Position numbers and translations under genes: made by a program. A DNA stretch of 36,295 nt from Spirochaetota bacterium (GTDB taxonomy: Bacteria > Spirochaetota > Spirochaetia > Treponematales > UBA12059), in assembly GCA_026398615.1 (NCBI GenBank), contig JAPLSN010000038.1:1-36295 (forward strand), written 5' to 3'. The notes below the pieces were generated by a model. That model saw nothing but the letters and a program-made list of their open reading frames with translations, had not been told where the DNA came from and ran no database searches. Shown piece by piece: positions 5,022 through 23,881 of this stretch. Positions within the stretch are counted from its first letter, which is position 1; each line of letters starts with the position of its first letter.

Positions 5022-5114
5022 AAAACAGCAACGAGCCTCCGGCCTCGGGGGACATGATCCGTTATCGGATTGCGGGAATGGTCAGTCACGGTATGTGGGT
5101 GAAGGAGGTTTTTG

Positions 5115-7799
5115 ATGCAGATCTCTATGAACGGAACATCGATCGGGGCCAAGCCGGGCCAGACGATTTTCCAGGCTGCAAGGGATAACGGAATATTCAT
5201 TCCGACTCTCTGCTATCATGACAAAGTAGGCGCAGCCGGCAAGTGCCGTGTCTGTGTCGTCGAAATAGAGGGAATGAACGGTCTTCAGACATCCTGCTCC
5301 GTCGAAGTGAGGGAGGGAATGAGGATCCAGACCAGGACGGAAAAGGTCATCAATGCCCAGAAGCTGGTCGTCGATCTCCTTCTGTCCACGGGGACGCATG
5401 ACTGTATCGCCTGCGATCAGAACGGGAAATGCGAGCTGCAGAACGCCGCCTACTATCTCGGGCTGGAGCGGGGATCCCTGAACTACGGTGTTCCTGAAAA
5501 GGACATGGACGAGAGTTCCGAGTTTGTCTTTGTCGACAGGAACAAGTGCATTTCCTGCGGCAGGTGCGTGGCTGCCTGCAACGGCACCGTCGTGAACGAG
5601 GTCCTCGATTTCAAGTACAGGGGCAACAAGGTGGATATCGCCTTTGACGACGACCTGCCCATGGGTAAATCCTCCTGCGTCCAGTGCGGCGAATGCTCCC
5701 AGATCTGTCCTGTCGGCGCCATCACCGACAGGAATTCACGGGGCAAGGCACGGCATTGGGAAGTCGAGAAAGTCTACTCGGTCTGTCCGTATTGCGGCGT
5801 CGGTTGCAAGCTCGAGCTGCATGTCGACAGGAAAGCGAACAAGATCATCAGGGTGAATGGCGTGGAAGGCGCCCCGACAAACGACGGAATGCTCTGCGTG
5901 AAAGGCAGGTATGGCTATGATTTCGTCGGACACGAGGAGAGGCTCAGGAATCCGCTCATCAAGAATCCGGACGGTACCTTCAGGGACGCCTCGTGGGACG
6001 AGGCTATCGACCTCGTTTCGAGAAAGTTCTTCGAGATCAAGTCGAAACATGGTGCGGATTCCATCATGGGCATGTGTTCCGCGAAAGCGACCAACGAAGA
6101 GAACTATACGTTCCAGAAATTGTTCAGGCAGGTGATAGGCACAAATAACATTGACCATTGCGCACGTCTTTGACACAGTTCGACAGTGGCCGGTCTGGCT
6201 GCTTCCTTCGGTTCCGGTGCAATGACCAATGATATCGCGGGCCTGGACAAGAGCGATGTGGCTTTGATCATAGGTTCTGACACATCCGAGGCTCATCCCG
6301 TGATAGCCGCTCGATTGAAAAAAGCGGCGAGAAAAGGCAAGCTCAAGATAATCGTGATCGATCCCAAAGAGATCAGAATGGCCGACTATGCGGAAATTTA
6401 CACTTGTCAGAGGCCGGGAACCGATGTCGCCGTGCTCAATGGCATGATGCATCTCATCATAAAAAACGGGTGGGAAGACAAGAAGTTCATTGAAGAGCGA
6501 TGTGAAGGCTATGAGGCCCTCAAGGAAGAGGTCGACAAGTTCACGCCCGAGTACGTCGAGCGGATTTCGGGCATTCCGGCGGCGACTCTCGAAAAGATCG
6601 CCGAACTTTTCGGCAAGGCCGAGACCGCGGCACTCTACTATGCGATGGGCATTACGCAGCACACGACCGGTATCGACAACGTCAAGTCCACCGCGAATCT
6701 CCAGATGCTCTGCGGCAACATGGGCAAGGTGGGCGGCGGCGTCAATCCGCTCAGAGGCCAGTCAAATGTCCAGGGTGCCTGTGATATGGGCGGACTTCCC
6801 AATGTGTTCACCGCGTATCAGAAAGTGGGAGATGCCCCCGTCCAGGAAAAGTTCGAGAGATTCTGGGGAGTCAGCTTGAGCGACAAACCCGGTATCCCGA
6901 TGACCGTCGCCTTTGACAAGGCATATGATGGCGAAATGAAGGCGTTCTACATCATGGGTGAAAACCCGATGATCTCGGACCCTGACCTTCACCACGCTGA
7001 AGCGGCACTGAAAAAACTGGAATTCCTGGTCGTGGAGGATATTTTCCTTACTGAAACGGCCAAGCTGGCGGATGTCGTCCTACCGGCATCGACCTACGCC
7101 GAAAAGTCGGGTACGTTCACGAATACCGAGAGAAGGGTCCAGCTCCTCTTCGAGGCCGTGAAAGCCCCGGGCGAGGCGAAGCACGACTGGCAAATCCACC
7201 AGATGCTGGCGAATAAAATGGGACAGAACTGGAATTTCGGCAACGCGCGGGAAATTTTCGAGGAGATCAGGAAGTGCACCCCCTCGTACGCGGGCATGAC
7301 CTATGAACGGCTTGGTTTCAACGGTCTTCAATGGCCTTGCCCGACCGAAGAGCATCCGGGAACGCCCGTTCTCCATATCGGCAAATTCACGAGAGGGCTC
7401 GGTTTGATGACAGCCATTCCCTTCAAGGCTCCCGCTGAAATGCCGGATGCAGACTACCCGCTGTATCTTACGACCGGCAGGATCCTGCAGCAGTTCCACA
7501 CGGGAACGATGTCCAGGAAGTCCCCGGGCTTGAATAACCTGGCGGGTCCCCATGCGATGATTTCCGTTCAGGATGCCGAGGCGATCGGGGTAAAGAACAG
7601 CGAGAAAGTGAAAGTTACGACAAGAAGAGGTTCTATCGTAACCACGGCGTTCATAACAAAAAGATGCCCGAAAGGCACGGTGTACGTTCCTTTCCATTTC
7701 GCCGAAGCGCCCGCCAATGCGCTGACGATCAATGCGCTGGATCCCGTGGCCAAGATTCCTGAATACAAGGTATGTGCCTGCAAGATTGAAAAGGTCTGA
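5115..7799 (+). CDS. fdhA: Selenocysteine-containing formate dehydrogenase, catalytic subunit (TGA at 6171 read as Sec)
   Basis: The 894-residue protein oxidises formate to CO2, or reduces CO2, at a Mo/W bis-MGD centre. In order it has an N-terminal 2Fe-2S domain with the Cys cluster near residues 33-50; a NuoG-type H-x3-C-x2-C-x5-C site (THDCIACDQNGKC); two ferredoxin motifs, CISCGRC and CVQCGEC; the CPYCGVGC 4Fe-4S site of the molybdopterin oxidoreductase fold; and then the catalytic region. The frame is interrupted only by TGA at 6171-6173. This falls exactly where Sec or Cys ligates the metal, giving DHCARL-U-HSSTVAGL with Sec353, and the His after it is conserved. ATG at 5115 follows GGAGG at 5104-5108; a TTG at 5112 is in frame but less likely. 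There is no Tat signal, so the enzyme should be cytoplasmic. Confidence 0.93.
6171..6203 (+). promoter_or_regulatory. UGA selenocysteine codon with bacterial SECIS hairpin in fdhA
   Basis: After the UGA (6171-6173), AGTGGCC (6185-6191) can pair with GGCTGCT (6197-6203), seven base pairs including two G-U, closing the loop GGTCT (6192-6196). In E. coli fdhF the same GGUCU loop begins 18 bases after the UGA, and here the spacing is also 18. SelB binds this loop to recode the UGA. Confidence 0.88.
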
Positions 7800-8626: not shown

Positions 8627-8637
8627 TTACGCCTCGT

Positions 8638-8729
8638 GGAGAGGAAGGATCTGGTGGTTCGACTGGTCTTCAAAACCAGGAGCGGGCGGGTAATACTGAC
8701 CGTGGTAGGTTCGATCCCTACCCTCTCTG
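8638..8729 (+). tRNA. selC: Selenocysteine tRNA, anticodon TCA
   Basis: The gene folds as a long tRNA of 92 bases without an encoded CCA. GGAGAGG (8638-8644) pairs with CCTCTCT (8722-8728), with G8729 as discriminator base. The D arm is GGATC-TGGT-GGTTC. The anticodon stem CTGGT/ACCAG (8663-8667 and 8675-8679) holds the loop CTTCAAA with TCA at 8670-8672. The T arm GTAGG-TTCGATC-CCTAC is at 8705-8721, and a long variable arm lies between. The TCA anticodon, the long variable arm, and selA-selB-selD directly downstream together identify it. I see seven clear acceptor pairs; an eighth, as usual for bacterial tRNA-Sec, is not a clean pair here. Confidence 0.95.
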
Positions 8730-8739
8730 TCTTTGACTG

Positions 8740-10319: not shown

Positions 10320-12271
10320 AACACCTCATCATGGGAACGGCCGGCCACGTGGATCACGGCAAGACCGCGCTGGTCAAGGCTCTTACCGGCTTCGACTGCG
10401 ATACGCACGCGGAAGAAAAAAGGCGCGGAATCACAATTCACCTCGGGTTCACTCACTTGAATCTGGAAGACGGGAACAGCGTCGGCATCATCGACGTGCC
10501 GGGTCACGCGGATTTTATCCATACCATGGTCGGCGGGGCGAGCGGTATCGATTTCGTGCTGCTCGTGATCGCCTCGGATTCCGGCGTCATGCCCCAGACC
10601 AGGGAGCATGTGCATATCATGGAGCTTCTGGGTATCAGGCGTGGCATCGTCGTGCTCAGCAAGTCTGATCTCGTGAATGCCGAACTCCTGGAACTGGCGT
10701 ACGATGACGTGCATCAGTTCGTCGAGGGAACGTTCCTCGAGGCTGCCACCATGATACCCGTATCAGCGAAAACCGGGCAGGGTGTGGCGGAACTGAAGCG
10801 TCTGATCGGGGAAATGTGCGCACGCGTCGAGGAAAAACCCGCCGATGGACCATTCCGCATGTTCGCAGACAGGGTTTTTTCCAAGGCGGGTTTCGGCACC
10901 ATTGTCACGGGATCGGTTATCGGCGGGAAACTCGTTCGGGACGAACCGGCGTACCTGATACCCGGGGGAGCCGAGCTGCGGGTGCGCAGGCTGGAACGCC
11001 ATGGCGAAGAAGTGCAAGAGATCCGGGCGGGAGACAGGGCTTCCATCAACCTCATCGGACTTGAAAAATCCGGATTTCAGCGCGGCATGCTGATTTCCGA
11101 TCGACAGCTCAAGGAAACAGCCATGCTGGACGCCCGGATCGAACTGTTCGATCCGAAGGCGGTCCTGCACACCTGGAACCAGGTGATTTTCCACTCCGGC
11201 ACGCTGGAGTGTCCGGCCAGCATGCACTTGATCGATCGGGATGAGCAGAAAAGCGGCGAAAGGGGCCTGGTGCAGATACACCTTGCCAGGGCCGGGGCTT
11301 TCATGCGCAGTGACAGATTTATCATCCGCACCAGCTCCTCGGATCGAACCCTGGGCGGCGGGGAGATCATCGACCCGTTTCCCCTGCACCATGTGCGCAG
11401 GCCCGAAAAGCTGGTCAAGACCATGGAAAGGATCGCGGGCGGGAAACTGGCAGATCTGGTCGGAATCGAGGTCAAGAAGGCATTCCGTGCGCTCAGGCTC
11501 GGGGAGATCGCGGAAACCCTCAATCTGGCAAGGAACGACGTGATGGCGTGCCTCTCCGGCGATGGCATGAAAGAGATCGAGGTTTTCACATTCGGGGAAG
11601 AGACGCTCCTTATCTCCGGACAATGCCTCGAACGGATGGAAAAAGCCGCGCTCAAGGCCATCTATGCGTTTCGCAGGCGCAATCCACTCGTGGAACACGG
11701 AGCCAGTTTCAACGAGATCAGGAGCGGCGTCAAGGTGGAAAAAGGTTCGGCGGATGAAGCAATGCTGGAACTGATCGTTCGTGGACTGGTGGACTCAGGA
11801 AGGATAAAAGAAAAAAGCCGCACTTTCGTCATGCATGGAGAAATTGCCGATATCGACGGCAGAACCAAGGAGAAAATAGCGCTCGTGGAAGTCTTCATCG
11901 CGGAGTGCGGCCTGCAAGTGCCCCTGATGAACGATCTGAAAAAAAAGGCGCTGTCATTCGGTATCGGTGAAAATGAATTGAAACAGATTCTGTATCATCT
12001 TCAGACAAACGGCACGATCTACAAGGCTGAGGGCAGTTACCTGCACAAGAAGACGGTGGATCGGGCCAGGGACAGGCTGGTCGGCGAACTGACCCGGTCA
12101 TCGACGGGGATTACCGTCGCCGGATTCCGCGACTTGATCGATGGCAATCGCAAGATCTGCCTCTTGCTCTTTTCGATTTTCGACGGCGAGGGCTTGACGC
12201 GCCGGGATGGCGACAATCGTTTTTTGGCGGGAAAAGGCGGGGACAAGCCGCCTGAAGGGAGCTACGCATGA
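10316..12271 (+). CDS. selB: Selenocysteine-specific elongation factor
   Basis: This 651-residue protein carries Sec-tRNA-Sec to the ribosome at UGA codons marked by a SECIS hairpin. The N-terminal half is an EF-Tu-like GTPase: GTAGHVDHGKT (7-17) is the P-loop, DVPGHADF is the G3 motif and SKSD the G4 motif. The C-terminal part (from about residue 385) is the region where SelB carries four winged-helix repeats that bind the SECIS RNA; the length matches full SelB, so none appears to be missing. It starts inside the selA stop codon and its own stop (12269-12271) overlaps the ATG of selD at 12268, so selA, selB and selD form one tight operon. Confidence 0.95.
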   Translation: MKHLIMGTAGHVDHGKTALVKALTGFDCDTHAEEKRRGITIHLGFTHLNLEDGNSVGIIDVPGHADFIHTMVGGASGIDFVLLVIASDSGVMPQTREHVHIMELLGIRRGIVVLSKSDLVNAELLELAYDDVHQFVEGTFLEAATMIPVSAKTGQGVAELKRLIGEMCARVEEKPADGPFRMFADRVFSKAGFGTIVTGSVIGGKLVRDEPAYLIPGGAELRVRRLERHGEEVQEIRAGDRASINLIGLEKSGFQRGMLISDRQLKETAMLDARIELFDPKAVLHTWNQVIFHSGTLECPASMHLIDRDEQKSGERGLVQIHLARAGAFMRSDRFIIRTSSSDRTLGGGEIIDPFPLHHVRRPEKLVKTMERIAGGKLADLVGIEVKKAFRALRLGEIAETLNLARNDVMACLSGDGMKEIEVFTFGEETLLISGQCLERMEKAALKAIYAFRRRNPLVEHGASFNEIRSGVKVEKGSADEAMLELIVRGLVDSGRIKEKSRTFVMHGEIADIDGRTKEKIALVEVFIAECGLQVPLMNDLKKKALSFGIGENELKQILYHLQTNGTIYKAEGSYLHKKTVDRARDRLVGELTRSSTGITVAGFRDLIDGNRKICLLLFSIFDGEGLTRRDGDNRFLAGKGGDKPPEGSYA

Positions 12272-13314
12272 GCGGTGATGAAATCATCAGGCTGACGACG
12301 ACCGTGTCAGCCGCCGGCTGAGCGGCCAAATTGAGTCCAGAGTTGCTGGACCGCGCACTGGATGGATTGAAGCCATTCCGCAGCCCGGACCTGCTCGTCG
12401 GCTTCGAGGGCAATGCCGACGCCGGTGTTTTCAGGCTGAGTGATGACCTGGCTATCGTCCAAACCGTCGATTTTTTCACACCCATCGTGGATGATCCCTT
12501 CACCTACGGAAGGATCGCCGCGGCCAATGCATTAAGCGATGTGTACGCGATGGGCGCCAAACCCGTCACCGCGATGAACATCGTGGCCTTCCCGAAGGAA
12601 GGGATGGACCCCGGTATTCTCCGGAGCATTCTGCAGGGCGGGATCGCGATCCTGAAGGAAGCCGGGGTATCGTTGGCCGGCGGCCATAGCGTAGCCGATC
12701 AGGAAATCAAGTACGGCATGTCGATAACCGGCATCGTTCACCCGGACCGGCTGGTGAGGAATACGGGCATGCGACCGGGCGACTGCCTGGTGCTGACCAA
12801 GCCCCTGGGAACAGGCGTGATCAACACGGCACTCAAAGCCGGATGCGCATCGCCTGAGAGCGTCGAAGCCGCGGTCAAGGTCATGACGACGCTCAATCGC
12901 GATGCCTCTTCGGTCATGTGCGCTGTCGGCGTGCACGCCTGCACCGATATCACCGGCTTCGGTTTTATCGGGCATTTGGCCGAAATGGTGATCAACTCCG
13001 GCGTGAACGTCGAGATCGACACAGAAGCGGTGCCCATCATCCCGCAAGCGCTGGAATACGCGGCCATGGGAATGCTCCCCGGCGGCGCTTACTGCAACAA
13101 AGAGTATCGACAGGCCATGGTGGATGCGGACGGATCAATCTCCGATGAGCTTGAGATGCTGCTGTATGATCCGCAAACTTCCGGAGGCCTTTTGATTTCA
13201 GTCGCTCAGGATCGTGTCGATGAGCTCTTGAAGCTCCTGGACGCGCGAGGGGTCAATGGTTCCATGGTAGGTACGGTAAAGATGGGAACCCCCGGGAAGA
13301 TTGCGCTCAGGTGA
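12268..13314 (+). CDS. selD: Selenophosphate synthetase, itself a selenoprotein (TGA at 12319 read as Sec)
   Basis: SelD makes selenophosphate from selenide and ATP, the selenium donor for SelA. From ATG 12268 the frame reads 17 codons, then TGA at 12319-12321, then AAKLSPELL. The sequence AAG-U-AAK is the catalytic motif of SelD, where Cys or Sec (here Sec18) and Lys21 are the active-site residues (Cys17 and Lys20 in E. coli). Reading through gives 348 residues, the normal family length. A start downstream of the TGA would lack the catalytic loop. Later conserved parts include GNADAGVF, the DxxTPIVDDPFTYGRIAAANALSDVYAMG stretch (12469-12555), GGHSV, and TDITGFGFIGHLAEM. The ATGA overlap with selB supports the start. 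Confidence 0.95.
12319..12351 (+). promoter_or_regulatory. UGA selenocysteine codon with SECIS-like hairpin in selD
   Basis: UGA is at 12319-12321. GTCCAG (12335-12340) pairs with CTGGAC (12346-12351), six perfect base pairs, around the loop AGTTG (12341-12345). The loop starts 19 bases after the UGA, close to the 18 seen in fdhA, and contains the expected G and U. The loop sequence differs from GGUCU, so SelB binding here may be weaker. Confidence 0.75.
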
Positions 13315-13322: not shown

Positions 13323-14216
13323 TCAGGCCTCTTGTTCCCTGAAAAAGACGATAAACGCTTCCAGCAGTCGGGAAGCTGTCATCTGCTTTCGATAAATACA
13401 CCAGAAGGCCCGCTTGAGCGTCAACCCTTCGACGGCTACGGTACGGATCAAGCCCAGGGCAACGCCCTTTCTGACGGCGAGATTGGACACAAACGCGATC
13501 CCTGCCTTGGCTTCCACCGCGGTGATCAGCGATTCCGTGCTTCCCAGGATAAGCGCCGGTCTGAGCTTGTTCACGTCAAAGCCGCCATTCAATAGCAGCA
13601 TTTCCACGCTCTGTCGAGTACCCGATGTCGACCCCCTGAGAATCATGGGCTCGGCGCTCAGTTCCAGGAAAGAGACATGCTTTCGTCCCGCAAAGGGGTG
13701 CTCAGGATAGACGATGAGTACTATCTCGTCCTCGGCGATCTTGATAGCCTCGAGCTCCCGGCATTCAGGATGCATTCCACAGAACCCGATATCGTATTCA
13801 CCGTTTTTCATGGCTTCGATGACACGTGCAGAGTCTATGACAGTCACCTGAATGCCCACGGCAGGATGCAGTTTCTTGAACTGGCCGAGGAGTGGCGGGA
13901 GGATGTATTCCCCCGGTATCGTGCTGGCGGCGATGACCAGGTTTCCGCTTACGGTCTCCTTGAGTTTTCCCAACTCATCCACGAGGGCTTGATGCTCGGT
14001 GTCGACAATGTTCGCGAATGCCAGCAGCCGCTTGCCTGCCTCGGTCATCATGAGGGTTTTTTGCTTCCGGTCGATAAGCTGCACGCCCAGGTCCTGCTCC
14101 AGTTTTTGGATTTGAAACGATACGGCTGGTTGGCTGATGGACAGTTTCTTGGCGACTTCGGAAAAGCTCCCTGTCTTGATCACTTCCAGGTACGTCTTCA
14201 GATAATCCAAATTCAT
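13323..14216 (-). CDS. LysR-family transcriptional regulator of the selenium genes
   Basis: The 297-residue protein has a typical LysR N-terminal helix-turn-helix (residues 1-60; SFSEVAKKLSISQPAVSFQI at 18-37) and a C-terminal co-inducer domain. The start at 14216 follows AAGGAG on the minus strand. It is transcribed divergently from the YedE operon and converges on selD, ending nine bases from the selD stop. LysR proteins commonly control the divergent neighbour; here that is the selenium/sulfur supply operon. A regulator of this kind is known to travel with YedE/YedF genes, so control in response to selenium status is likely but not shown. The ligand is unknown. Confidence 0.85.
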   Translation of the reverse strand: MNLDYLKTYLEVIKTGSFSEVAKKLSISQPAVSFQIQKLEQDLGVQLIDRKQKTLMMTEAGKRLLAFANIVDTEHQALVDELGKLKETVSGNLVIAASTIPGEYILPPLLGQFKKLHPAVGIQVTVIDSARVIEAMKNGEYDIGFCGMHPECRELEAIKIAEDEIVLIVYPEHPFAGRKHVSFLELSAEPMILRGSTSGTRQSVEMLLLNGGFDVNKLRPALILGSTESLITAVEAKAGIAFVSNLAVRKGVALGLIRTVAVEGLTLKRAFWCIYRKQMTASRLLEAFIVFFREQEA

Positions 14217-14242
14217 CGATTGCTCCTTTTATATAAGAGAAA

Positions 14243-14277
14243 TCAATATTGACCATAAAAAATCCTTATGATAAGAT
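14243..14277 (+). promoter_or_regulatory. Divergent control region: yedE promoter with LysR operator candidates
   Basis: TTGACC (14249-14254) and TAAGAT (14272-14277) with a 17-base spacer form a good promoter for the yedE-like gene. The perfect palindrome TCAATATTGA (14243-14252) overlaps the -35 element, and CTTAT-G-ATAAG (14265-14275) overlaps the -10 element. Both are plausible binding sites for the LysR protein, whose usual sites are AT-rich dyads. Confidence 0.55.
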
Positions 14278-14332
14278 TCTTTGAGTCAAGTCTATGCCAC
14301 AGAAAGAGAAATTGGTAGTGAAGGGGACTTCC

Positions 14333-15436
14333 ATGCATTTTTTCTCCCGGTTTTTGACATCCCGCTGGGGACCGATTATCACAGGTCTCATCGTCGGCAT
14401 CCTTGCGCCCTTACTGGTAAAGTTCGGAAATCCGGGCAACATGGGAATCTGCGTCGTCTGTTTCGGCCGCGACATCGCCGGCGCCTTGGGGCTCCATAGA
14501 GCAGGAGCAGTGCAATACATCCGCCCCGAGATAATCGGTTTGGTCCTGGGCGCGTTTGTCGCAGCCCTCCTGTCCCGCGAGTTCAAGCCGCGTACGGGTT
14601 CGGCGCCGCTCGTGCGATTCCTGCTGGGCATGTTGGCCACCTTCGGCGCCCTGGTGTTCCTCGGCTGTCCGTGGCGGGCCTACCTGCGCCTGGCAGGCGG
14701 AGACTGGAACGCGATCTTCGGCATACTCGGTCTGGTGGCCGGCATCGTGCTGGGCATCGTGTTCCTGCGCGGAGGCTACAGCCTGGGCCGGAGTCATCCG
14801 GCGCCCAAAGCCTTGGGCTGGGTCATGCCCGCCATCATGGTGACGCTGCTCGCTCTCCTGATCCTCGCCCCGCAGTTCGGCCGGGATGCCGAAGGCAAAC
14901 CGATAGGACCCATCTTTTTCTCCGCAACTGGGCCCGGCAGTCAGCACGCGCCGCTGCTCATTTCCCTGGCAGCGGGTCTACTGATCGGTTTCCTGGCTCA
15001 ACGAAGCCGTTTCTGCACCATCGGTGCCGTGCGTGACGCCATCTTGCTTCGCGATTCGCGCCTGCTTTCAGGCGTCGTGGCCCTGATCGTTTCCGCCTTC
15101 GCGGCCAATCTGGCTCTGGGCCAGTTTCATCCCGGTTTCGAGAACCAGCCGATAGCCCATACCGATGGCTTGTGGAATTTCGGCGGCATGGCATTGGCGG
15201 GCTTGGCCTTCACGCTCGCAGGCGGTTGCCCCGGGCGGCAGCTCTTCCTGGCAGGTGAAGGCGACGCCGACTCTGGCCTGTTCTTCGTCGGAATGCTGGT
15301 CGGCGCCGGTTTTGCCCATACCTACGGCATAGCCAGTTCAGCCGCCGGCACCGGTCCTTGGGGACCTTTGGCGGTGATCGCGGGATTGCTGGTCTGTGTC
15401 CTTTTCGGCCTTACGATGCGCGAGTCCGAGGTATAG
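14333..15436 (+). CDS. YedE-like selenium metabolism membrane protein (YeeE/YedE family)
   Basis: This 367-residue membrane protein has about nine or ten hydrophobic segments. It carries the conserved cysteines of the YeeE/YedE family: GICVVCFGRD near the N-terminus, GCPWR, RSRFCTIGAVRD and GGCPGRQL. Family members carry sulfur species across the membrane, and the YedE branch next to YedF occurs with selenium genes, so it may take up selenium or sulfur compounds. The start is taken as ATG 14333, with AAGGGGA upstream; an in-frame ATG at 14294 has no ribosome site and lies too close to the promoter. It is the first gene of a four-gene operon. Confidence 0.82.
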   Translation: MHFFSRFLTSRWGPIITGLIVGILAPLLVKFGNPGNMGICVVCFGRDIAGALGLHRAGAVQYIRPEIIGLVLGAFVAALLSREFKPRTGSAPLVRFLLGMLATFGALVFLGCPWRAYLRLAGGDWNAIFGILGLVAGIVLGIVFLRGGYSLGRSHPAPKALGWVMPAIMVTLLALLILAPQFGRDAEGKPIGPIFFSATGPGSQHAPLLISLAAGLLIGFLAQRSRFCTIGAVRDAILLRDSRLLSGVVALIVSAFAANLALGQFHPGFENQPIAHTDGLWNFGGMALAGLAFTLAGGCPGRQLFLAGEGDADSGLFFVGMLVGAGFAHTYGIASSAAGTGPWGPLAVIAGLLVCVLFGLTMRESEV

Positions 15437-15445
15437 GAGCTGAGC

Positions 15446-15667
15446 ATGAACGATACAACGACCGTGGATGCCCGCGGGCTTTCCTGCCCGCAACCGGCTC
15501 TGCTGGTCCGACAGGCACTCCAGAAGCTGGGCAAGGGAAGTCTGGAAGTGCTGGTGGATTCCGGGACCGCCCGCGAGAACGTTTCCCGTCTGGCCAAGAA
15601 GGCCGGCTGGACGGTGACGCTGGAAGAGCAATCTGAAGGTAACTTCAAGATTACGCTGGATAAATGA
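15446..15667 (+). CDS. YedF/TusA-like sulfur or selenium carrier
   Basis: The 73-residue protein is a single TusA/SirA domain. The signature DARGLSCPQP contains the carrier Cys14, which in this family holds a persulfide or perselenide. YedF proteins of selenium clusters often have an added C-terminal domain making about 200 residues; here that part is absent, so only the carrier domain remains. TAGGAG precedes the ATG. The stop overlaps the start of the next gene (ATGA, 15664-15667). Its likely partners are the membrane protein upstream, as source, and the desulfurase-like enzyme downstream. Confidence 0.8.
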   Translation: MNDTTTVDARGLSCPQPALLVRQALQKLGKGSLEVLVDSGTARENVSRLAKKAGWTVTLEEQSEGNFKITLDK

Positions 15668-16812
15668 TCTACCTGGACAACGCCGCAACGTCCTGGCCCA
15701 AGCCCAGGGAAGTCATGAAGGCGATGATCGGCGCTTTGGAACACGCCGGGGGCAACCCCGGCCGTTCCGGACACCGCCTGTCCATTGCCGCGGCTCGGGT
15801 TATCTATGACACCAGGGAAGGGATCGCCGGGTTATTCGGCTGTGCGGACCCGCTCCGGGTGGTTTTTACCGGTAACGCCACTCACGCGCTCAATCTGGCT
15901 CTCAGGGGAATACTGAAACCGGGCGACCGTGTCGTCGCAGGTTCCATGGAACACAATGCCTCCATGCGGCCGCTGCGGTGCCTAGAAAAACAGGGTGTCA
16001 TCGTGAACCTGGCAGAGTGCGATGCGGATGGCAGCCTGGACGCCGGGAGTCTTGGTGCCGCGATCACTCCCGACACGAAACTGGTCGTCCTGAACCATGC
16101 CAGCAACGTGACGGGGACGCTGCTGCCCATCGCCGAACTGGCCGCCATCGCCCATCGGGCGGGGGCGCTGGTCCTCGTGGACGCCGCCCAGACGGCAGGG
16201 GCGTTGCCGATCGATATCCAGGCGATGGGCATCGACCTGCTGGCTTTTGCCGGGCACAAGGAATTGCTGGGACCCATGGGTATCGGCGGACTTATCATCG
16301 CCGAAAGTGTCGATGCTTCGCGGATGGAACCTCTGATCCGTGGCGGGACGGGGAGTCGCTCCGAATCCGAAGAGCAACCGGAAGACCTGCCCGACAGGTT
16401 CGAAAGCGGTACGCCCAATCTGGCGGGTATTGCCGGCCTGGGCGCGGGCTTGCGTTGGCTCAAAGAAAGGGGTATCGAAGAAACCAGGGCGCACATGAAA
16501 AAAATCAGTTCCCGATTGATCGATGGCTTGTCCACGCTTCCGGGGCTCAATATCTACGGGACGCTTGACCCGGAACGCTCTATGGCAGTGATATCCTTCA
16601 CCGTTTCAGGCAAGCGCGTCTCGGAGATAGGGTTCAGGCTGGATGAGGAATTCGGCATCATGTCGAGGGTCGGCTTGCACTGCGCTCCCATGGCGCATCG
16701 GACAATCGGGTCCTTCCCCGAAGGAACCGTAAGGTTTGCACCCGGAGTTTTCACGACGGACCGCGATATCCAGAAAGCGCTCAAAGCGGTCATCCGGATT
16801 GTACGGTCATGA
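15664..16812 (+). CDS. Cysteine desulfurase-like class-V aminotransferase
   Basis: The 382-residue protein belongs to the NifS/Csd-type PLP fold. It opens with MIYLDNAATSWPKP, has the PLP lysine at Lys199 in AGHKELLGPMG, and ends with the substrate-attacking Cys340 in GLHCAPMAHRTIG. These enzymes take sulfur from cysteine or selenium from selenocysteine. This sub-branch is often found beside YedF and DUF3343 genes, so a role in mobilising selenium for SelD is likely but inferred. It overlaps the genes before and after it by four bases, which suggests tightly coupled expression. Confidence 0.85.
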   Translation: MIYLDNAATSWPKPREVMKAMIGALEHAGGNPGRSGHRLSIAAARVIYDTREGIAGLFGCADPLRVVFTGNATHALNLALRGILKPGDRVVAGSMEHNASMRPLRCLEKQGVIVNLAECDADGSLDAGSLGAAITPDTKLVVLNHASNVTGTLLPIAELAAIAHRAGALVLVDAAQTAGALPIDIQAMGIDLLAFAGHKELLGPMGIGGLIIAESVDASRMEPLIRGGTGSRSESEEQPEDLPDRFESGTPNLAGIAGLGAGLRWLKERGIEETRAHMKKISSRLIDGLSTLPGLNIYGTLDPERSMAVISFTVSGKRVSEIGFRLDEEFGIMSRVGLHCAPMAHRTIGSFPEGTVRFAPGVFTTDRDIQKALKAVIRIVRS

Positions 16813-17045
16813 AACAATACGGGGTAGTCTTGTTCCACACGACCTCGGCGGTTTTGCGTACGGAGAAGCTGCTAAGAAAAGAGGGATTCGCCATCAAGCT
16901 CATCCCGACGCCCAGGCAGTTCTCGAGCGACTGCGGTATCGCCCTTCGCTTCGACTGGAACTGTCAAGAGCGGATAGGGTCGATCCTGGGTGAGGCAAGA
17001 ATCGCATTCGACGCACTGCATTTCCTGGACACGATGACGGCGTAG
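16809..17045 (+). CDS. DUF3343 protein, putative selenium/sulfur carrier
   Basis: The small protein of 78 residues matches DUF3343: an N-terminal VVLFHTTSAVLRTEKLL stretch, and the conserved SSDCGIALR with Cys42. Members of this family are typically encoded next to the class-V aminotransferase seen here, and are thought to accept the chalcogen atom on the conserved cysteine. The start overlaps the stop of the upstream gene (ATGA). It is the last gene of the operon. The function is not proven. Confidence 0.75.
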   Translation: MKQYGVVLFHTTSAVLRTEKLLRKEGFAIKLIPTPRQFSSDCGIALRFDWNCQERIGSILGEARIAFDALHFLDTMTA

Positions 17046-17052
17046 GAATACG

Positions 17053-17072
17053 GCTCATTTTTTCGAATGAGC
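17053..17072 (+). terminator. Possible terminator of the selenium supply operon
   Basis: GCTCATT (17053-17059) pairs with AATGAGC (17066-17072) around a six-base T-rich loop, eight bases after the DUF3343 stop. Only ATTTCAT follows, so the T-run is weak. Confidence 0.45.
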
Positions 17073-17365: not shown

Positions 17366-18394
17366 ATGCATGCAAAAACCGCGGTTCGTCTGTTCGTTGC
17401 GCTCCTTTTGACGACGGGTGCGGCTTCGGCGCAGGATTGGGCGGTCTCCCTTCCCGGAACGCTCGACCGGATGGCGAGCTCCTACTACCTTCCCACCGTC
17501 AACGCGGCCTTCGGGACATTCACCTTCGCATACACCGAACTGTCGAGTCCCTTTTCTCGCTGGTTCGAAGAGCGGCTCGCCGATGCCGCGGCCAGGAGCC
17601 GCAACGTCAAGCTCTTCAACAAGGCCGCCGCCGCCGCGATGGATCCGGCATTCAGGGCCGTCTACGCGGATCTCTTCGCGTCGAACGAGGTCGGAGCCCT
17701 CCTCCACGGGCGATATTATGAAGAAAACGATGGTGTCCGCGTCCGGATCGAGCTCACCGGGCTCTCTGACGGCATCCTCATCGGCACGGCCGAATTCCGG
17801 ATACCGAAGCGCGATATCCCCGCCGGTCTTCCGGTAGACCCGGGAAAAGCCGCCGAAGCTGCGGCTGCGAGCCTCGCTTCCATCGTTTCAGCGGGTGCCT
17901 CTGGCGGATCTTTCGACAAGCGACTCGGCGTTTCCGCAAGCACCGACCGGGGGGCCGGCGCAGTCTATCGCGAGGGCGAGGCGATGTCCGTACTTGTCAC
18001 GGTGAGCGCGGACGCCTACCTCAAGGTCTACCACGTCGACGTCAAGGGCGCCGTCCAGCTCATCTGGCCGAACCGCTTCGGCGGCGGTCAGGGTCTGGTT
18101 CGCGCGGGGGCCGCCGTGCGTATTCCGGGCGAGGGGGCGCCCTTCGAATTCCGGATGACGCCGCCCTACGGCACGGAGTTCATCAAGGTGATCGCCTCGA
18201 CCGCGCCCTTTGCCGGGAAGGAAGGCGACTTCGCCGATCTCCGCGAAGGGGCGAGCGACAACGCCCGGGCGGCCATAACGAGAGGGCTCTCGGTAGTAGG
18301 CACCGGAGCCAATGCTTCGACGGCAGGCGTTGCGGGGCCGGCTTCCATGGCCGAAGCCACTGCCAGCTATGTCATCATGGAAGCCCGGCCATGA
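17366..18394 (+). CDS. Exported DUF4384 domain protein
   Basis: The 342-residue protein starts with a clear signal peptide, MHAKTAVRLFVALLLTTGAA followed by SAQDW, with cleavage likely after SAQ near residue 24. The C-terminal half (about 190-340), with YREGEAMSVLVTVSADAYLK and then VYHVDVKGAVQLIWPN, matches DUF4384, a domain of surface and secreted proteins whose role is unknown. The N-terminal part contains an FxFAYTELSSPFSRWFEERL stretch and resembles the CsgG-like or outer-membrane assembly regions found in spirochaete proteins, but I cannot name it. The start at 17366 is chosen because only it gives a signal peptide at the N-terminus. The next gene begins 19 bases downstream, so the two may be co-transcribed. 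Confidence 0.7.
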   Translation: MHAKTAVRLFVALLLTTGAASAQDWAVSLPGTLDRMASSYYLPTVNAAFGTFTFAYTELSSPFSRWFEERLADAAARSRNVKLFNKAAAAAMDPAFRAVYADLFASNEVGALLHGRYYEENDGVRVRIELTGLSDGILIGTAEFRIPKRDIPAGLPVDPGKAAEAAAASLASIVSAGASGGSFDKRLGVSASTDRGAGAVYREGEAMSVLVTVSADAYLKVYHVDVKGAVQLIWPNRFGGGQGLVRAGAAVRIPGEGAPFEFRMTPPYGTEFIKVIASTAPFAGKEGDFADLREGASDNARAAITRGLSVVGTGANASTAGVAGPASMAEATASYVIMEARP

Positions 18395-18413
18395 CGGCCA
18401 CGGTGGATGCGTG

Positions 18414-20321
18414 ATGGACCGGTCGCAGGGTGCGGATACGCGGGCGAACGCGAAGCGCGGGAATCGGACCCGGCGGCCGACGGTGCATGCGGCGGGCAGG
18501 GTGTCGTACGCCATCAGGAAACTCATCGAAGGAACCTTCGGGCGGCTGCTCCTGTCCTTCGCCTTGGTGATGGGACTCGTCATCCTCGTTTTCGGCCTCG
18601 TATTCGCTTTCATCGGCGCGGGCACGGGGTTCAAGGATCCCTTCTGGTTTTCCTTCCTTTCGCTCCTCGGTCCGGACGCGCTGTTCACGGTCGATGAAAC
18701 CGCAACGCCCACGAGGACTGTCGCCGCGATTCTCGTGGCCTTCGGCATCGTCGCGTTCAACGGCATCATCGTGGCCATCGTCGTATCGCGGCTCCAGCGC
18801 GAATTCGAAGCCATCCATGAAGGGCGGGGGAGGATTTTTGAACGCGGCCACGTCGTCCTGCTCGGGTGGACGGATTCGACGCCGGCCTTGCTGCGCGGGC
18901 TCGACGACTGGTGCGTCACGGAGGGCCGGAAGCTCCTCGTCGTGACGACGGCCGACGAGGCAAGCGAGGACCTGGTGCGATCCCTGCCGCGATTCCGGAA
19001 GCTGGCCGTAACCCACCGTCGCGGGCTCCCGCAGGGCGAAGGAATCCTCGAGACGGTGGCCGCCGGCGATGCATCCTGCATCATCATCCAGTATGACAAG
19101 TTTTCCCCGGCGGAAATCGAGGATCCCGCCGATGACGCGGTGCGGGATGCCTCCGTGGCTACCGCCTACATCGCCGCCCGGGCCGAGCTCGGGGAGAGTC
19201 TGCCGCCCTGCGTCGTGTCCATGCGAGGCCCGGGAAGGATGCGGGACCTCGAACCTTTCCTCGATCCGGGCACCCGAATGTTCGACGAGGACAGGTTCGT
19301 GGGCGCCTATATCGCGACGCTGTGCATCGAGCCGCTAGTCTACGCGGCCCTCGACGAGATGCTTTCCTTCCGCGGTTGCGAACTGCACTTCAGGGATGCC
19401 CGCGAAGATGTCGGCCTGGAATTCCGGGAGCTTCAGGCGCGCTACGATCTCGCCCTGCCGGTCGGCATTTTGCGTCGGGGACTGCTTTCCCTCGTCCCCG
19501 ACCCGTGCGAACGGATAGGGACCGGGGATACCGTGGTGTTCATCGCCGAGAATGACAAGGCCTGCCTCCGACCGGATCATGGTGCCCCCGGACAGGAACT
19601 GCCTTCGTCCGATGCACTCCGGCTGGAGTTCATTCCGGCCTCGAGCGTGCGCGGTCGGCGGGAATTGCTCGTGGTAGGCAGGAACCGCCTCCTTCCGCAT
19701 ATCCTGGAAGAATTCCATCGGGCAGGCATCGGGGTCCGCGCCATCCCCGCGCCCGGGATGGATACGGATGACGACGACAGGGAAATGGACTACGATTGGG
19801 CATCCGTGGACGATTTGGCAGGATTCGAGCGCATCCTGCTGCTGGCTGACGATACCGGGCGGGATCGCGCCCAGACCGACGCGGAAACGGTTTTCAGGAC
19901 GCTTTCCCTCATGCGGTACCGCGATTCGACCGGCGCAGGATTCGCCATTGCCGCCGAGTTCCTCGATCCGGTTACCGAGGGGGCCATGAGCCTTCTCCCG
20001 GGAACTGGTTTCACCTGGATAGTCGGGACTCAGGTCAGCTCCGAACTCCTGGCAATGGCAGCGATACACCGTGGCTATCTTGACGCGTTCGACGACCTGC
20101 TCTCCGAAAGCGGTACGAGGATATTGACGGGTACCCTGCACCGGAACGACGCCACTCGAAGACTGACATTCGGCGAGGCGGTTTTCCTGCTCGGCAGGGA
20201 AAACCGGATCGTGCCGATCGGCATTTTCGAGGATGGACGATTCATCCTCAATCCGAACCGCTCGACACCTCTCGAGGACGGAGCGGAAATCGCCGTGATC
20301 GCGCCGTTCGACCTGGCTTGA
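18414..20321 (+). CDS. CASTOR/POLLUX-like putative ion channel
   Basis: The 635-residue protein has two clear membrane segments (about 43-66 and 104-126) flanking a pore-like stretch (FWFSFLSLLGPDALF). A basic helix follows, and then two RCK-like nucleotide-binding halves: one begins with GHVVLLGWTD near residue 145, the other with RELLVVGRNRLL near residue 415. This order matches bacterial relatives of the plant CASTOR/POLLUX channels, which conduct cations and are gated by the ring of RCK domains. The start is ATG 18414; the longer frame upstream runs inside the preceding gene. No partner gene indicates which ion is carried. Other RCK-containing channels are possible. Confidence 0.7.
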   Translation: MDRSQGADTRANAKRGNRTRRPTVHAAGRVSYAIRKLIEGTFGRLLLSFALVMGLVILVFGLVFAFIGAGTGFKDPFWFSFLSLLGPDALFTVDETATPTRTVAAILVAFGIVAFNGIIVAIVVSRLQREFEAIHEGRGRIFERGHVVLLGWTDSTPALLRGLDDWCVTEGRKLLVVTTADEASEDLVRSLPRFRKLAVTHRRGLPQGEGILETVAAGDASCIIIQYDKFSPAEIEDPADDAVRDASVATAYIAARAELGESLPPCVVSMRGPGRMRDLEPFLDPGTRMFDEDRFVGAYIATLCIEPLVYAALDEMLSFRGCELHFRDAREDVGLEFRELQARYDLALPVGILRRGLLSLVPDPCERIGTGDTVVFIAENDKACLRPDHGAPGQELPSSDALRLEFIPASSVRGRRELLVVGRNRLLPHILEEFHRAGIGVRAIPAPGMDTDDDDREMDYDWASVDDLAGFERILLLADDTGRDRAQTDAETVFRTLSLMRYRDSTGAGFAIAAEFLDPVTEGAMSLLPGTGFTWIVGTQVSSELLAMAAIHRGYLDAFDDLLSESGTRILTGTLHRNDATRRLTFGEAVFLLGRENRIVPIGIFEDGRFILNPNRSTPLEDGAEIAVIAPFDLA

Positions 20322-20657
20322 CCTCAGGCGGGCAACGATCCGGCAAAAGGGAAGCCGGGATTTTGCCATCATCCTCCGGAGCGAGGACGGTTGCGGGTCA
20401 TGCCACGGGGAGCCATGATTCATGAGCCAATTTAAATAGATTACTTCTGATATTGGCTTTGCGATTATCGCCAGAATACTGGCGCTCATGGTTCTTGACA
20501 TTTGGATGAACCGTTGCGCACATCGCGCATCAAAAAGGTAGCTCTTTCAGGATACATCTATATTTTGAAAGAGCCTCTCATGATTGTCGGTTCAGGATCC
20601 CGGTTCAGGGGACCCAGCCTGCCAGCGAGCGATCGAATAAGGTAAAGGAACGTCAGC
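20322..20657. other. Gene-free region with hairpins before the GPH symporter
   Basis: No coding frame is supported. CGCCAG (20469-20474) and CTGGCG (20479-20484) make a small hairpin. GCTCTTTCA (20541-20549) pairs with TGAAAGAGC (20566-20574) around a 16-base AT-rich loop, which could be a terminator or the leader structure of the next gene. TTGACA lies near 20497 but lacks a well-placed -10 element. Confidence 0.4.
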
Positions 20658-21950
20658 ATGGATCGTCTGCCTCTTTCGAAAAAGCTCTCGTATGCCACCG
20701 GAGGGCTCGCGCTCAACTACGCGAACCTCCTCATAAGCCAATGGCTGCTCAGGCTCTACTCGCCCGACAAGGAGCATGCCCTCGTGCCGGTCGGCCTGTT
20801 CTCCCTGATCTTCCTTTCGGGGCGGATCATGGACGGGATCACGGATCCGCTCGTCGGGTACATCAGCGACCATACGAGGACCAGGTTCGGGCGGCGCATC
20901 CCGTACGTGGCGGGCGCGATACTGCCAACCGCCCTCGTTTCCTGCCTCATGTGGATGCCGCCGTTCGCGGGCGGCCTGAATCCACTGAATGCCGTGTATC
21001 TCCTCGTCTGCGTCCAGCTTTTCTTCATCTTCTGGACCCTGCTCGCGAATCCCTACCTGAGCCTGATCCCGCAGCTCTCAGGCGATCCGAAGGACCGCGT
21101 CGACATCACCACGTTCCAGGCCGTCTTCATCATGTTCGGGACCTTCCTCTCGGCGTTCATCGGCAACATCAAGGCCAGCTTCGGCTGGGCGGGTCTCGGC
21201 GTATCCGTGGGTCTCGTCACCCTGGTCTCCTTCCTGCCGACCCTGTTCATGATCCGCGAACCCTCGTCGCGGGAACTGCCCACGGAAGGAAAGGCGCTCA
21301 ACCCCCTGCGGATGGCCGGCAACATCGCATCCACCTTCCGTAACACGCCATTCATATTCCTCCTGGCTTCCACCTCGCTGTTCTGGTTCTCGCTCAACCT
21401 CGCCATCATTTTGGTTCCCTTCTGGATGCAGTATGTCGTCCACATGGGAGATGACGCGGTCGTGCTCGCGATGCTCCCCTTCCTCGTTTCGAACATCCTC
21501 TTCTTTTTCGTTTTCAACGCCCTCGCCAAGAAGGCGGGCAAGTTCCCCGTATTCATGATCACGCTCGCGGGGTCGGCCGTGGCCGTTCTCGCGCTCTTCC
21601 TGGTCAGAGAAGGAGAGGGCGCTCTCCTCTCCACGCAGATCGCCATGGCCATCTACGGCATCCCGACCGCGGGGTTCCAGATGCTTCCGAACGCGCTGCT
21701 CGCCGACGTGGTCGACAGGGATGAAACGATATCGGGTCAGCGCCGCGAAGCGCTCTACTTCGGGCTCCAGGCCGTCTTCCAGAAAGTGGCCATCGGGTTT
21801 TCGATCACGGCAGCGGGTTTTCTCATGTACTGGGGCGGCGACGCGCTACCCACGGTGGCCGGCCTCAAGTTCATCGTCGTCACGGCCTCGGTGGCCGCCG
21901 CGCTCGCCACGATGGCATTTTCGTTCTACGCGATACGGGAGAAGACATGA
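20658..21950 (+). CDS. GPH-family sugar:cation symporter (MelB-like)
   Basis: The 430-residue protein has about 12 membrane segments. The conserved loop SDHTRTRFGRRIPY (around residues 70-85) and the preceding SGRIMDGITDPLVGY are the signature of the glycoside-pentoside-hexuronide symporters. The acidic residue in MDGITDP is the kind that binds the coupling cation. The substrate cannot be told; the absence of a nearby glycoside hydrolase gives no hint. A weak AAAGGA precedes the ATG. The stop is 28 bases before the start chosen for fdhD, so the two may be co-transcribed although their functions look unrelated. Confidence 0.83.
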   Translation: MDRLPLSKKLSYATGGLALNYANLLISQWLLRLYSPDKEHALVPVGLFSLIFLSGRIMDGITDPLVGYISDHTRTRFGRRIPYVAGAILPTALVSCLMWMPPFAGGLNPLNAVYLLVCVQLFFIFWTLLANPYLSLIPQLSGDPKDRVDITTFQAVFIMFGTFLSAFIGNIKASFGWAGLGVSVGLVTLVSFLPTLFMIREPSSRELPTEGKALNPLRMAGNIASTFRNTPFIFLLASTSLFWFSLNLAIILVPFWMQYVVHMGDDAVVLAMLPFLVSNILFFFVFNALAKKAGKFPVFMITLAGSAVAVLALFLVREGEGALLSTQIAMAIYGIPTAGFQMLPNALLADVVDRDETISGQRREALYFGLQAVFQKVAIGFSITAAGFLMYWGGDALPTVAGLKFIVVTASVAAALATMAFSFYAIREKT

Positions 21951-21978
21951 GCTTGCGGCCCCGTCCCGCGTGGCCTTC

Positions 21979-22728
21979 ATGATTTCTTCGCGCAGGCCTC
22001 TCGCGTACGAGCGGCCCGTCGAGCTCAGGTTGAACGGCGGGCGGCTCGTGACCCTCATGTGCACGCCATTCGACCTCGACGAACTGGGCGTGGGTCATCT
22101 CCTCGCGATGGGTATCCTGCGCGACCGGAGCGAACTCGCGTCCATCTACGTGTGCCCGGATCTTGGCTACGTCGATATCGAGATGGCGGGCGTCCCCCGG
22201 GCGGATACCGGCTCGCTTCATGCCGTCGTCGCTTCGGGCTGCGGTTCGGAAGGGGATATCTTCCCCGACCTTTCCGCCATTTCCGCGGTGCGGACGGATT
22301 TTTCCATCGCTCTGGATGTCCTGGCCGGATTCGCCCGCGCGATGTACGAAAGCGCAAGCATGTATCGCGCGACGGGAGGCGTGCACTGCGCGTCCCTGGT
22401 CCTGGGGGATGGTTCGCGCGGACGCCAGGTGATCCGCGAGGACGTCGGGCGGCACAATGCCGTGGACAAGGTGCTTGGCCGCGCCTTCCTCGACGGGGCG
22501 GCCTTTGGCGGGACCTGCATCCTCACGAGCGGCCGGATCGCCGCCGACATGGCGCTCAAGGCCGCCGCGGCCGGCGTACCGGTTCTTGCCACGAGGAGCA
22601 TACCGACGTCGGCAGCCTATGAGATCGCCTCGAAGCTCGGGATCACGCTCGTGGGAAGGCTCGGATCGTCCGAACCTTCGGTATATACCTGGCCGGAACG
22701 CATCGCGCCCGGGGGCGTGATCGCGTGA
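21979..22728 (+). CDS. fdhD: FdhD, sulfurtransferase for formate dehydrogenase activation
   Basis: FdhD moves sulfur from a cysteine desulfurase to the Mo/W cofactor of formate dehydrogenase, which is essential for activity. The 249-residue protein has the opening RPLAYERPVELRLNGG, the segment FDLDELGVGHLLAMGI, the active-site loop ASGCGSEG with Cys88, and the conserved REDVGRHNAVDKVLGRAF, TSGRIAADMALKAA and ATRSIPTSAAYEIA. Many FdhD proteins have a CxxC pair in the loop; here only one cysteine is seen. The start is uncertain: ATG 21979 is used, with an in-frame GTG at 21970 as the alternative, and no clear ribosome site for either. It lies 14 kb from fdhA but is its expected partner. Confidence 0.9.
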   Translation: MISSRRPLAYERPVELRLNGGRLVTLMCTPFDLDELGVGHLLAMGILRDRSELASIYVCPDLGYVDIEMAGVPRADTGSLHAVVASGCGSEGDIFPDLSAISAVRTDFSIALDVLAGFARAMYESASMYRATGGVHCASLVLGDGSRGRQVIREDVGRHNAVDKVLGRAFLDGAAFGGTCILTSGRIAADMALKAAAAGVPVLATRSIPTSAAYEIASKLGITLVGRLGSSEPSVYTWPERIAPGGVIA

Positions 22729-22782
22729 GGGAATTTGCGGAACGACGCGGCAGCGTCATGCACATTTCTCAAGGAGGAAACG

Positions 22783-23025
22783 ATGTTCGGAAGGATCGGA
22801 CCCACGGAACTCATCCTGATTCTCGTGATCGCGCTCGTCATCTTCGGCCCGAAGAAACTGCCTGAGATCGGCAAGGCGCTCGGCGAGGCGCTTCGCCAGT
22901 TCAGGAAGCAGGCGGAACGCGTCACGGACGACGCGGACGAGCGGCCGGACGCATCGGCGCATCCACCGGCTGGCGGGAGTCATGAGGGCAGGGACAGGAA
23001 CGACGCGGACGGCGGGGCATCCTGA
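22783..23025 (+). CDS. tatA: TatA, twin-arginine translocase pore subunit
   Basis: The 80-residue protein has the TatA layout: one N-terminal membrane helix ([20 protein letters not shown], where FGP is the hinge), then an amphipathic helix ([17 protein letters not shown]), then an acidic low-complexity tail. AAGGAGG precedes the ATG at 22783. tatC follows 77 bases downstream and no tatB is present, so this is a minimal TatA-TatC system. The Tat pathway exports folded cofactor-containing proteins. The formate dehydrogenase in this window has no Tat signal, so the substrates must lie elsewhere. Confidence 0.9.
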
Positions 23026-23102
23026 GCCTCGCGGTCATGCGTCATGCGGGGTTCGGGGGGATGGCGGTCCGCGGTTTCCCGTCCGCGTGGAGTTGACGGA
23101 TC

Positions 23103-23867
23103 ATGGATGACACGCGCATGGATTTCGTGGGGCATCTCTCCGAGCTGAGGAAGCGCCTGCTGGTTTCCCTGGCCGCGTTCCTCGTCGCCGGCGCTGCGGT
23201 CTTTCCGTTCGCGGGAGGGCTGGCCGAGTTCGCATCCAGCCCGGCGAAGGGCGTCAGGCTGGTCTACCTCTCGCCGCCCGAGCTCTTCATGTCGTACGTC
23301 GAACTGGCGCTCGCCGCCGGACTAGTCCTGTCCATGCCGGTGATCCTTTTCGAAGCCTGGCGCTTCGTGAAGCCCGCGCTCGACCGCCGCGAACGGCGGG
23401 CGGTGCTGTCAGCCGTTGTCGCCGGGGCTGTCCTCTTCGCATCGGGAGCGGCCTTCGCGTTCCTGGCGGTCGTCCCGCTCACCGTTCGCTTTTTCCTCTC
23501 TTTTTCCGCTCCCGGGATCGAGGCAATGTATTCCATCGCCGAGTACCTGGATTTCGTGACCGGTATCGTCATCGCCTTCGGCATCGCGTTCGAGTTGCCG
23601 GTCGTGGCTTGGACCCTCGGTTCGCTCAGGCTGGTCGACTCGCTCGCGTTCGCGAAGGCCCGAGGTCCGGCGGTGCTCGTCATCTTCATCGTCGCGGCGA
23701 TCCTTACGCCGCCTGACGTGGTTTCGCAGCTGCTCCTCGCCCTGCCGCTCGTGGGCCTGTACGAAGTCTCAGCCGTCCTGCTCCGTGTCCAGGAAGCCGG
23801 CCGGGTCCGGCGGACCCGACGGCTCGGACCGGCCGGGTCGCCGCAGGTTCCTGGCGTTTCCGGGTGA
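23103..23867 (+). CDS. tatC: TatC, twin-arginine translocase receptor subunit
   Basis: The 254-residue membrane protein starts with MDFVGHLSELRKRLL, the conserved TatC N-terminus that binds the twin-arginine signal, and has about six hydrophobic segments. The periplasmic-loop Pro and the FxxPV/FEAWRFVKPAL stretch are typical. FGIAFELPVV contains the membrane-buried Glu conserved in the family. The gene ends 14 bases before the stop of the glycogen debranching gene on the other strand. The C-terminal tail is rich in Arg and Pro. Confidence 0.9.
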   Translation: MDDTRMDFVGHLSELRKRLLVSLAAFLVAGAAVFPFAGGLAEFASSPAKGVRLVYLSPPELFMSYVELALAAGLVLSMPVILFEAWRFVKPALDRRERRAVLSAVVAGAVLFASGAAFAFLAVVPLTVRFFLSFSAPGIEAMYSIAEYLDFVTGIVIAFGIAFELPVVAWTLGSLRLVDSLAFAKARGPAVLVIFIVAAILTPPDVVSQLLLALPLVGLYEVSAVLLRVQEAGRVRRTRRLGPAGSPQVPGVSG

Positions 23868-23881
23868 CGACCGGGAAACCA

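Follow-up and report, generated by a model that had tools for sequence, protein, structure and literature searches.

A selenium-linked yedE operon beside a divergent lysR gene in a Spirochaetota contig, and a probable selenocysteine-read leader in its relatives

The operon and its proteins

We analysed a whole contig of 36,295 bases (JAPLSN010000038.1, here C22 or the window) from the genome of a Spirochaetota bacterium (G000; 3.38 Mb in 43 contigs, judged 99% complete), with attention to a group of four genes, yedE, tusA, a desulfurase-like gene and a DUF3343 gene, that lies next to genes for selenocysteine (Sec) synthesis. Open reading frame (ORF) analysis placed a lysR gene at 13323-14216 on the minus strand, divergent from the four genes, which run on the plus strand from 14294 or 14333 to 17045. 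The features are as follows:

13323-14216, minus strand: lysR_Se regulator, 297 residues, between selD and yedE; NF040786, selenium metabolism-associated LysR (LysR_Sec_metab), 267.5 bits, cut-off 250
14243-14275, no strand: candidate LysR sites, namely the palindromes TCAATATTGA (14243-14252) and CTTATGATAAG (14265-14275), which overlap the promoter-like sequence
14249-14277, plus strand: promoter-like TTGACC-N17-TAAGAT with extended -10, for yedE; consensus match only
14333-15436 (alternative start 14294), plus strand: yedE, putative selenium transporter, 367 residues; TIGR04112, 487.9 bits, cut-off 200
15446-15667, plus strand: TusA-type carrier, 73 residues, CPxP Cys14; PF01206, 68.3 bits, cut-off 28.6
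15664-16812, plus strand: class-V aminotransferase-fold desulfurase or selenocysteine lyase-like enzyme, 382 residues; TIGR01977, 451.1 bits, cut-off 377
16809-17045, plus strand: DUF3343 putative Se/S carrier, 78 residues; PF11823 (Se_S_carrier), 74.9 bits, cut-off 25
17053-17072, plus strand: terminator-like hairpin 3' of the operon; pattern match only

The original prediction had taken the entire stretch for a four-gene operon whose genes overlap or nearly touch. The coordinates bear out this layout, with a gap of 9 bp between yedE and tusA and ATGA overlaps at both the tusA/desulfurase and the desulfurase/DUF3343 junctions, and the operon is real, but the stretch additionally holds lysR on the opposite strand. 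The arrangement is not a matter of chance, since many distant loci have their genes in this order: the four-gene cassette was found in many Chloroflexota, in one Syntrophales bin and elsewhere, with selD or selB often coming next. The ATG at 14333 is a likelier start for yedE than 14294 because the better Shine-Dalgarno sequence, AAGGGG, stands before it. Promoter-like and terminator-like patterns such as those listed above occur in the window at close to their chance count.

The AlphaFold2 model of YedE (predicted local distance difference test score, pLDDT, of 90) indicates a fold of the thiosulfate-transporter TsuA type: the TsuA and TsuA-TsuB structures 6leo, 6lep, 8j4c and 8k1r matched it at Z 22-24, and the next unrelated fold at Z 4.7. 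YedE fell below the cut-offs of the TsuA sequence models (36.5 against 645 bits and 36.6 against 400 bits); given the first of these scores, we say that it may work like TsuA, not that it is TsuA. In sequence comparison the halves of YedE aligned to TsuA in swapped order. We discarded this as a meaningful difference, the sequential structure match being already Z 24, and the swap may perhaps only mirror the inner two-fold symmetry. Five cysteines (Cys40, 43, 112, 228 and 299) were invariant in the 59 aligned sequences. A gene of TusA type adjoins yedE, or lies within a few hundred bases of it, in almost all of 109 relatives, and by analogy the economical reading would be that YedE and TusA are a TsuA-TsuB-like pair turned to selenium.

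The TusA-type protein had been called YedF in the original prediction, an identity that we could not uphold. Its 73 residues are a lone TusA domain lacking the DsrE half of the two-domain selenium YedF; it scored 59.3 bits on the YedF model TIGR03527 (cut-off 110), fitting only the first third of the model, and a true two-domain YedF in one related locus (L077) scored 211.5. The CPxP cysteine, Cys14, was kept in all 114 relatives. In the desulfurase-like enzyme Lys199, His97 and Cys340 were invariant (47/47), as was Cys42 of the DUF3343 protein (66/66). The predicted structure of the latter is ferredoxin-like, with a best match of Z 7.9; assignment from the fold was abandoned, as many unrelated families tied at this match. 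In some Desulfobacterota loci (L073, 1430-1981; L090, 9324-9881; and others), DUF3343 proteins of about 185 residues are encoded directly after tusA with no desulfurase gene adjacent, and their second half is unassigned.

Across the phylum we examined 218 genomes for co-occurrence, counting matches over the family cut-offs; the p values are uncorrected for phylogeny. YedE was present in 58 of the 218, and 56 of these 58 had selD (Fisher p 8e-22); by genus the figure was 19/19 (p 1e-8). Of the two YedE genomes without selD, the first is a 73% complete assembly and the second is split into about 990 contigs. The selenium LysR passed its cut-off in 11 genomes, each with both selD and yedE. DUF3343 accompanied YedE in 58/58 genomes. 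Thus the co-occurrence with selD that had been proposed as a check holds for YedE, but DUF3343 and the desulfurase do not give a clean result, since both are also found in genomes without selD; for the same reason these two are not selenium-specific and are better seen as chalcogen handlers recruited by selenium systems. Four genomes of one family carry desulfurase, DUF3343 and split YedE halves and have no selD (L162, L163, L164 and L165/L166); these loci may be a sulfur version of the cassette.

The gene set is not new: all of its members, LysR included, have already been proposed for selenium. Haft and Self drew a link to selD in 2008 for EF_2566, which is TusA-like, and for EF_2568, a desulfurase (PMC2276186), and Lin et al. 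added YedE, the LysR_Se subfamily and DUF3343 in 2015 with a model of selenium homeostasis (PMC5322559). The operon, real and selenium-linked, is therefore a further case of an already described candidate gene set.

Probable selenium supply and its alternatives

We believe that the four genes are probably an operon for the supply of selenium to selenophosphate synthetase (SelD), by the scheme that best explains the observations. The selenium reading is supported by the context of Sec genes and by the co-occurrence of YedE with selD (56/58). As the original prediction had it, the operon is tied to selenium: it adjoins selC, selA, selB and a Sec-type selD, and, of the five proteins, four score above the cut-offs of models for selenium-linked or carrier families. 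We infer all transport and transfer steps of the scheme, as well as the substrate. YedE would import a reduced selenium compound, at a guess the selenium analogue of a thiosulfate- or sulfane-type species. The single-domain TusA would dock on the inner face of YedE, as TsuB does on TsuA, and take the selenium on Cys14; uptake through TsuA requires TsuB (PMC11073785). The desulfurase-like enzyme would free selenium, and probably sulfur too, from selenocysteine or cysteine on Cys340 into the same pool, and DUF3343, with Cys42 and its ferredoxin-like fold, would hand selenium on to SelD, the presumed recipient. SelD would then make selenophosphate for SelA, and so for the Sec of formate dehydrogenase and of SelD itself. 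Control of the operon would lie with the divergent LysR of the selenium-linked subfamily.

A number of observations weigh against this proposal. For the path from uptake through carrier and enzyme to SelD, as it had been drawn originally, an archaeal experiment is unfavourable: deletion of yedE in Methanococcus maripaludis gave no clear uptake phenotype, the mutant showing a mild effect on selenocystine, in an archaeon where selenium depletion raises yedE expression by 5.3 log2 (PMC11097638). In the literature searched, transport or transfer by the YedE-cassette family has not been demonstrated. The enzyme did not pass the SclA model NF040779 (390.5 bits, cut-off 525) and has Asn98 at the position of Asp146, the residue that gives human selenocysteine lyase (SCL) its Sec specificity (PMC3266270). 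Moreover, selD was absent from 10 of 84 genomes with DUF3343 and, where TIGR01977 matched strongly, from 23 of 95. Finally, the lysR-bearing relatives L010, L044, L081 and L099 have no shared LysR site. The description of the operon as LysR-controlled rests on position and family; a binding site could not be demonstrated, and most cassette relatives have no adjacent lysR. The palindromes of the 14217-14332 gap were rejected as a LysR box, being without conservation in the lysR-bearing loci; LysR control and its polarity are inferred. Asn98 was considered as a selenium marker and set aside, Asn being present also in TIGR01977 members of selD-less genomes.

Two other explanations were weighed. 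The genes could be a general uptake and relay cassette for sulfur (sulfane or thiosulfate) that stands beside selD by chance, with selenium a minor passenger. The TsuA fold and cysteine motifs of YedE agree with this, as do the presence of DUF3343 and TIGR01977 members in selD-less genomes and the four genomes in which desulfurase, DUF3343 and split YedE occur without selD. However, full-length TIGR04112 YedE is nearly confined to selD genomes (56/58) and often stands beside selD or selB, and it scores far under the TsuA models (36.5 against 645 bits), so we consider a sulfur cassette improbable. We give a similarly low chance to a module for recycling selenocysteine, in which the enzyme would be a Sec lyase, YedE would import organic selenium or act as an exporter or redox partner, and inorganic selenium would enter via other carriers. 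The founder of TIGR01977, EF_2568, was named a probable Sec lyase in 2008 (PMC2276186), the SclA enzyme of the Enterococcus faecalis selD operon prefers Sec (PMC13188914), and it was on selenocystine that the archaeal yedE mutant showed its mild effect (PMC11097638). Against recycling, the enzyme lies under the SclA cut-off, and YedE seems independent of the lyase, since YedE and TusA occur in many loci with no desulfurase adjacent. We accordingly retain the reading of a selenium-supply operon, to which the present comparison adds a compact cassette with invariant cysteines, a predicted TsuA-type fold for YedE and a leader in relatives. For prokaryotes in general, a recent review holds that a specific high-affinity system of selenium transport has yet to be identified (PMC13188914).

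A UGA-containing leader in related loci

During the search for LysR sites, a conserved leader came up in 30 relatives, mostly upstream of yedE (in two cases before other genes) and many of them Chloroflexota loci. Its parts are, in order, a strong Shine-Dalgarno sequence, a mini-ORF of 2-11 codons, a UGA, a hairpin resembling the selenocysteine insertion sequence (SECIS) and an open frame beyond the UGA. Examples, together with two leaders from the wider search described below, are:

L032, 5898-6052: leader
L033, 2559-2707: leader
L034, 1327-1481: leader
L044, 7758-7915: leader
26 further loci: leader
L250, 4825-4986, minus strand: leader upstream of a desulfurase-DUF3343-selD-selA-selB operon; the genome, from Chloroflexota, has no TIGR04112 YedE
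L251, 1214-1366: leader upstream of a gene that starts MSRSTVVLFTRFGLGQ, looks DsrE-like by eye, has no family match and is cut by the contig end

When the regions upstream of yedE were scanned for the same arrangement with all three stop codons allowed, UGA was the stop in all 21 qualifying loci, and UAA or UAG in none. The residues before the UGA are conserved as [NHY]-R-R-T while the codons vary: Thr precedes it in 19 of 30 leaders with all four codons in use, and Arg stands at -2 in 19 of 30 with all six. Past the UGA, the next stop in frame 0 came at 27-36 codons in 19/30 leaders and before 20 codons in only one, and the other two frames had a stop at 27-36 codons in 2/30 and 0/30; 2000 shuffles gave a mean of 3.3 and a maximum of 11. 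With leaders at least 75% identical removed, the count was 18/28 (shuffle mean 3.1, maximum 10). This frame statistic is less independent than the any-stop scan because the mini-ORFs (n=30, most loci being metagenome bins) were chosen, by eye and with the covariance model, once the pattern was already known, and because in L036, L047 and L054, which have two in-frame UGAs, the second was used. In these three loci the UGAs stand one codon apart and the second has the usual distance to the hairpin.

The hairpin was recognisable in 28 of the 30 leaders, and in 27 of these it begins 9-15 nt past the UGA, like the hairpins at the selD UGA of the same loci; in the main group the spacing differs by 3 nt, and the frame is therefore kept. 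Over 20 aligned leaders it was 92% paired, with two-sided changes at 6 of 7 pairs, and a long-range stem (P1), from the mini-ORF start to a downstream block, was 71% paired with two-sided changes at 7 of 12. Together, hairpin and P1 beat shuffles and slid controls in this alignment; P1 was no better than shuffles in L038, L041, L065, L077 and L109. A covariance model (R1) found one leader per genome, always before yedE, in 23 of 30 genomes at E < 0.01, and among 201 Chloroflexota it yielded the two further leaders of L250 and L251. It gave no match in the window or elsewhere in its genome, and no confident match in another 32 genomes with YedE, few of them from Chloroflexota. A search of ten YedE loci, most with a leader, at the Rfam gathering thresholds and a search of the leader peptides against Pfam and NCBIfam gave no match, and the literature searched held nothing on Sec leader peptides in bacteria, so that the leader is apparently undescribed.

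Taken together, these results indicate that the leader is probably read with Sec at its UGA, Sec insertion and SelB binding being predicted from sequence. In ten of the loci examined, the stop reached by read-through lies no more than 16 nt before a sequence able to pair with the yedE Shine-Dalgarno sequence, a pairing for which there is no shuffle control. A ribosome that inserts Sec would end near this masking sequence and could free the yedE start, and one that stops at the UGA would not; expression is thus predicted to go with Sec supply. Both this polarity and the masking switch are suggested by geometry, and the polarity may be the opposite; in L053 the leader is separated from yedE by a terminator-like hairpin. 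We hold it rather likely that the cassette of the relatives is governed by the Sec-read leader through its hairpin, about 20 nt past the UGA, with the frame closing some 30 codons on, the supply of Sec-tRNA setting the expression of selenium import, and that the window's lineage lost the leader and replaced it by lysR control. If this is correct, the leader would be a built-in selenium sensor working through Sec-tRNA supply, its position would predict genes of the selenium regulon, and such sensing would be open to direct reporter tests; even in the best-studied archaeal case the means of selenium sensing is unknown (PMC11097638).

Genomic surroundings, origin and known systems

Upstream of lysR lie the following genes:

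3315-5021, plus strand: NuoE/NuoF-like electron-transfer subunit, adjoining fdhA; PF01512, PF01257, PF10589
5112-7799, plus strand: fdhA, formate dehydrogenase alpha with Sec at UGA 6171-6173; TIGR01591, 851 bits with the UGA read as Sec
8637-8731, plus strand: selC, tRNA-Sec; ARAGORN, and Rfam RF01852 at 52.8 bits
8859-10319, plus strand: selA; TIGR00474, 517.4 bits
10316-12271, plus strand: selB; TIGR00475, 295.5 bits, over cut-off
12268-13314, plus strand: selD, itself a selenoprotein gene, with a Sec UGA at codon 18 (12319-12321); TIGR00476, 388.9 bits

The two halves of fdhA, 5112-6173 and 6186-7799, form one frame once the UGA at 6171-6173 is taken as Sec, and fdhA is a likely main user of the selenium. 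The hairpins after the UGA of selD and of fdhA were no more stable than shuffles, so folding energy is no proof of a SECIS in the window and the UGA calls rest on homology. Between roughly 3 and 17 kb, the contig thus carries a selenoenzyme, the Sec machinery and the supply genes as one self-contained set. An fdhD gene lies on the same contig (21721-22728).

In a YedE tree (111 proteins), the copy of the window falls inside Dehalococcoidia, with 83% identity to a contig binned as Syntrophales and 81% to Dehalococcoidales, apart from a single clade formed by five named spirochaetes. Only 8 of 23 genomes of the window's family have YedE, the other copies being 55-68% identical, and the G+C content ranges from 0.49 to 0.62 in the first 18 kb or so and from 0.60 to 0.66 in the rest of the contig. 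Contamination was dismissed as an unlikely cause of the Chloroflexota-like YedE: the contig belongs to its host, since a gene 10 kb downstream (27256-30402) is conserved at 54-69% identity in nearly all genomes of the family, and the same contig thus carries a family backbone gene. Given the place of YedE among Dehalococcoidia, the most probable reading is that the island, or the cassette, was transferred, and most likely the cassette was acquired with or next to the sel and fdh genes from a donor that would have been Dehalococcoidia-like. The first half of the contig (1-17045), with its lower G+C and Chloroflexota-like YedE, differs from the second (18000-36295) and is a probable transferred island.

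Several known systems invite comparison. Thanbichler and Boeck are said to have described, in 2002, a SECIS-like element in the 5' leader of Escherichia coli selAB, reportedly without a mini-ORF carrying a Sec codon. A SECIS-type hairpin in the 5' leader of a selenium gene would be common to both, whereas the leader of the relatives has a putatively translated mini-ORF ending in UGA and an open frame beyond it. The operon itself has the families of the candidates of Lin et al. (PMC5322559) and of EF_2566-EF_2567-EF_2568 (PMC2276186), namely TIGR04112, LysR_Se, PF11823 and TIGR01977, and the same link to selD; it differs from these sets in having all four genes in one tight operon, a single-domain TusA in place of a two-domain YedF, and lysR between selD and yedE. 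With TsuA-TsuB (YeeE-YeeD; 6leo, 8j4c, 8k1r; PMC11073785), YedE shares the predicted membrane fold and an adjacent TusA-type partner with a CPxP cysteine, but its halves are swapped by sequence, it lies far below the TsuA cut-offs and it is linked to selD. Similarly, the enzyme shares the class-V aminotransferase fold, the catalytic Cys and the pyridoxal phosphate Lys with SclA (PMC13188914) and human SCL (PMC3266270), and with SclA also the selD neighbourhood, although it scores below the SclA cut-off and has Asn98 instead of the Asp146 of the human enzyme.

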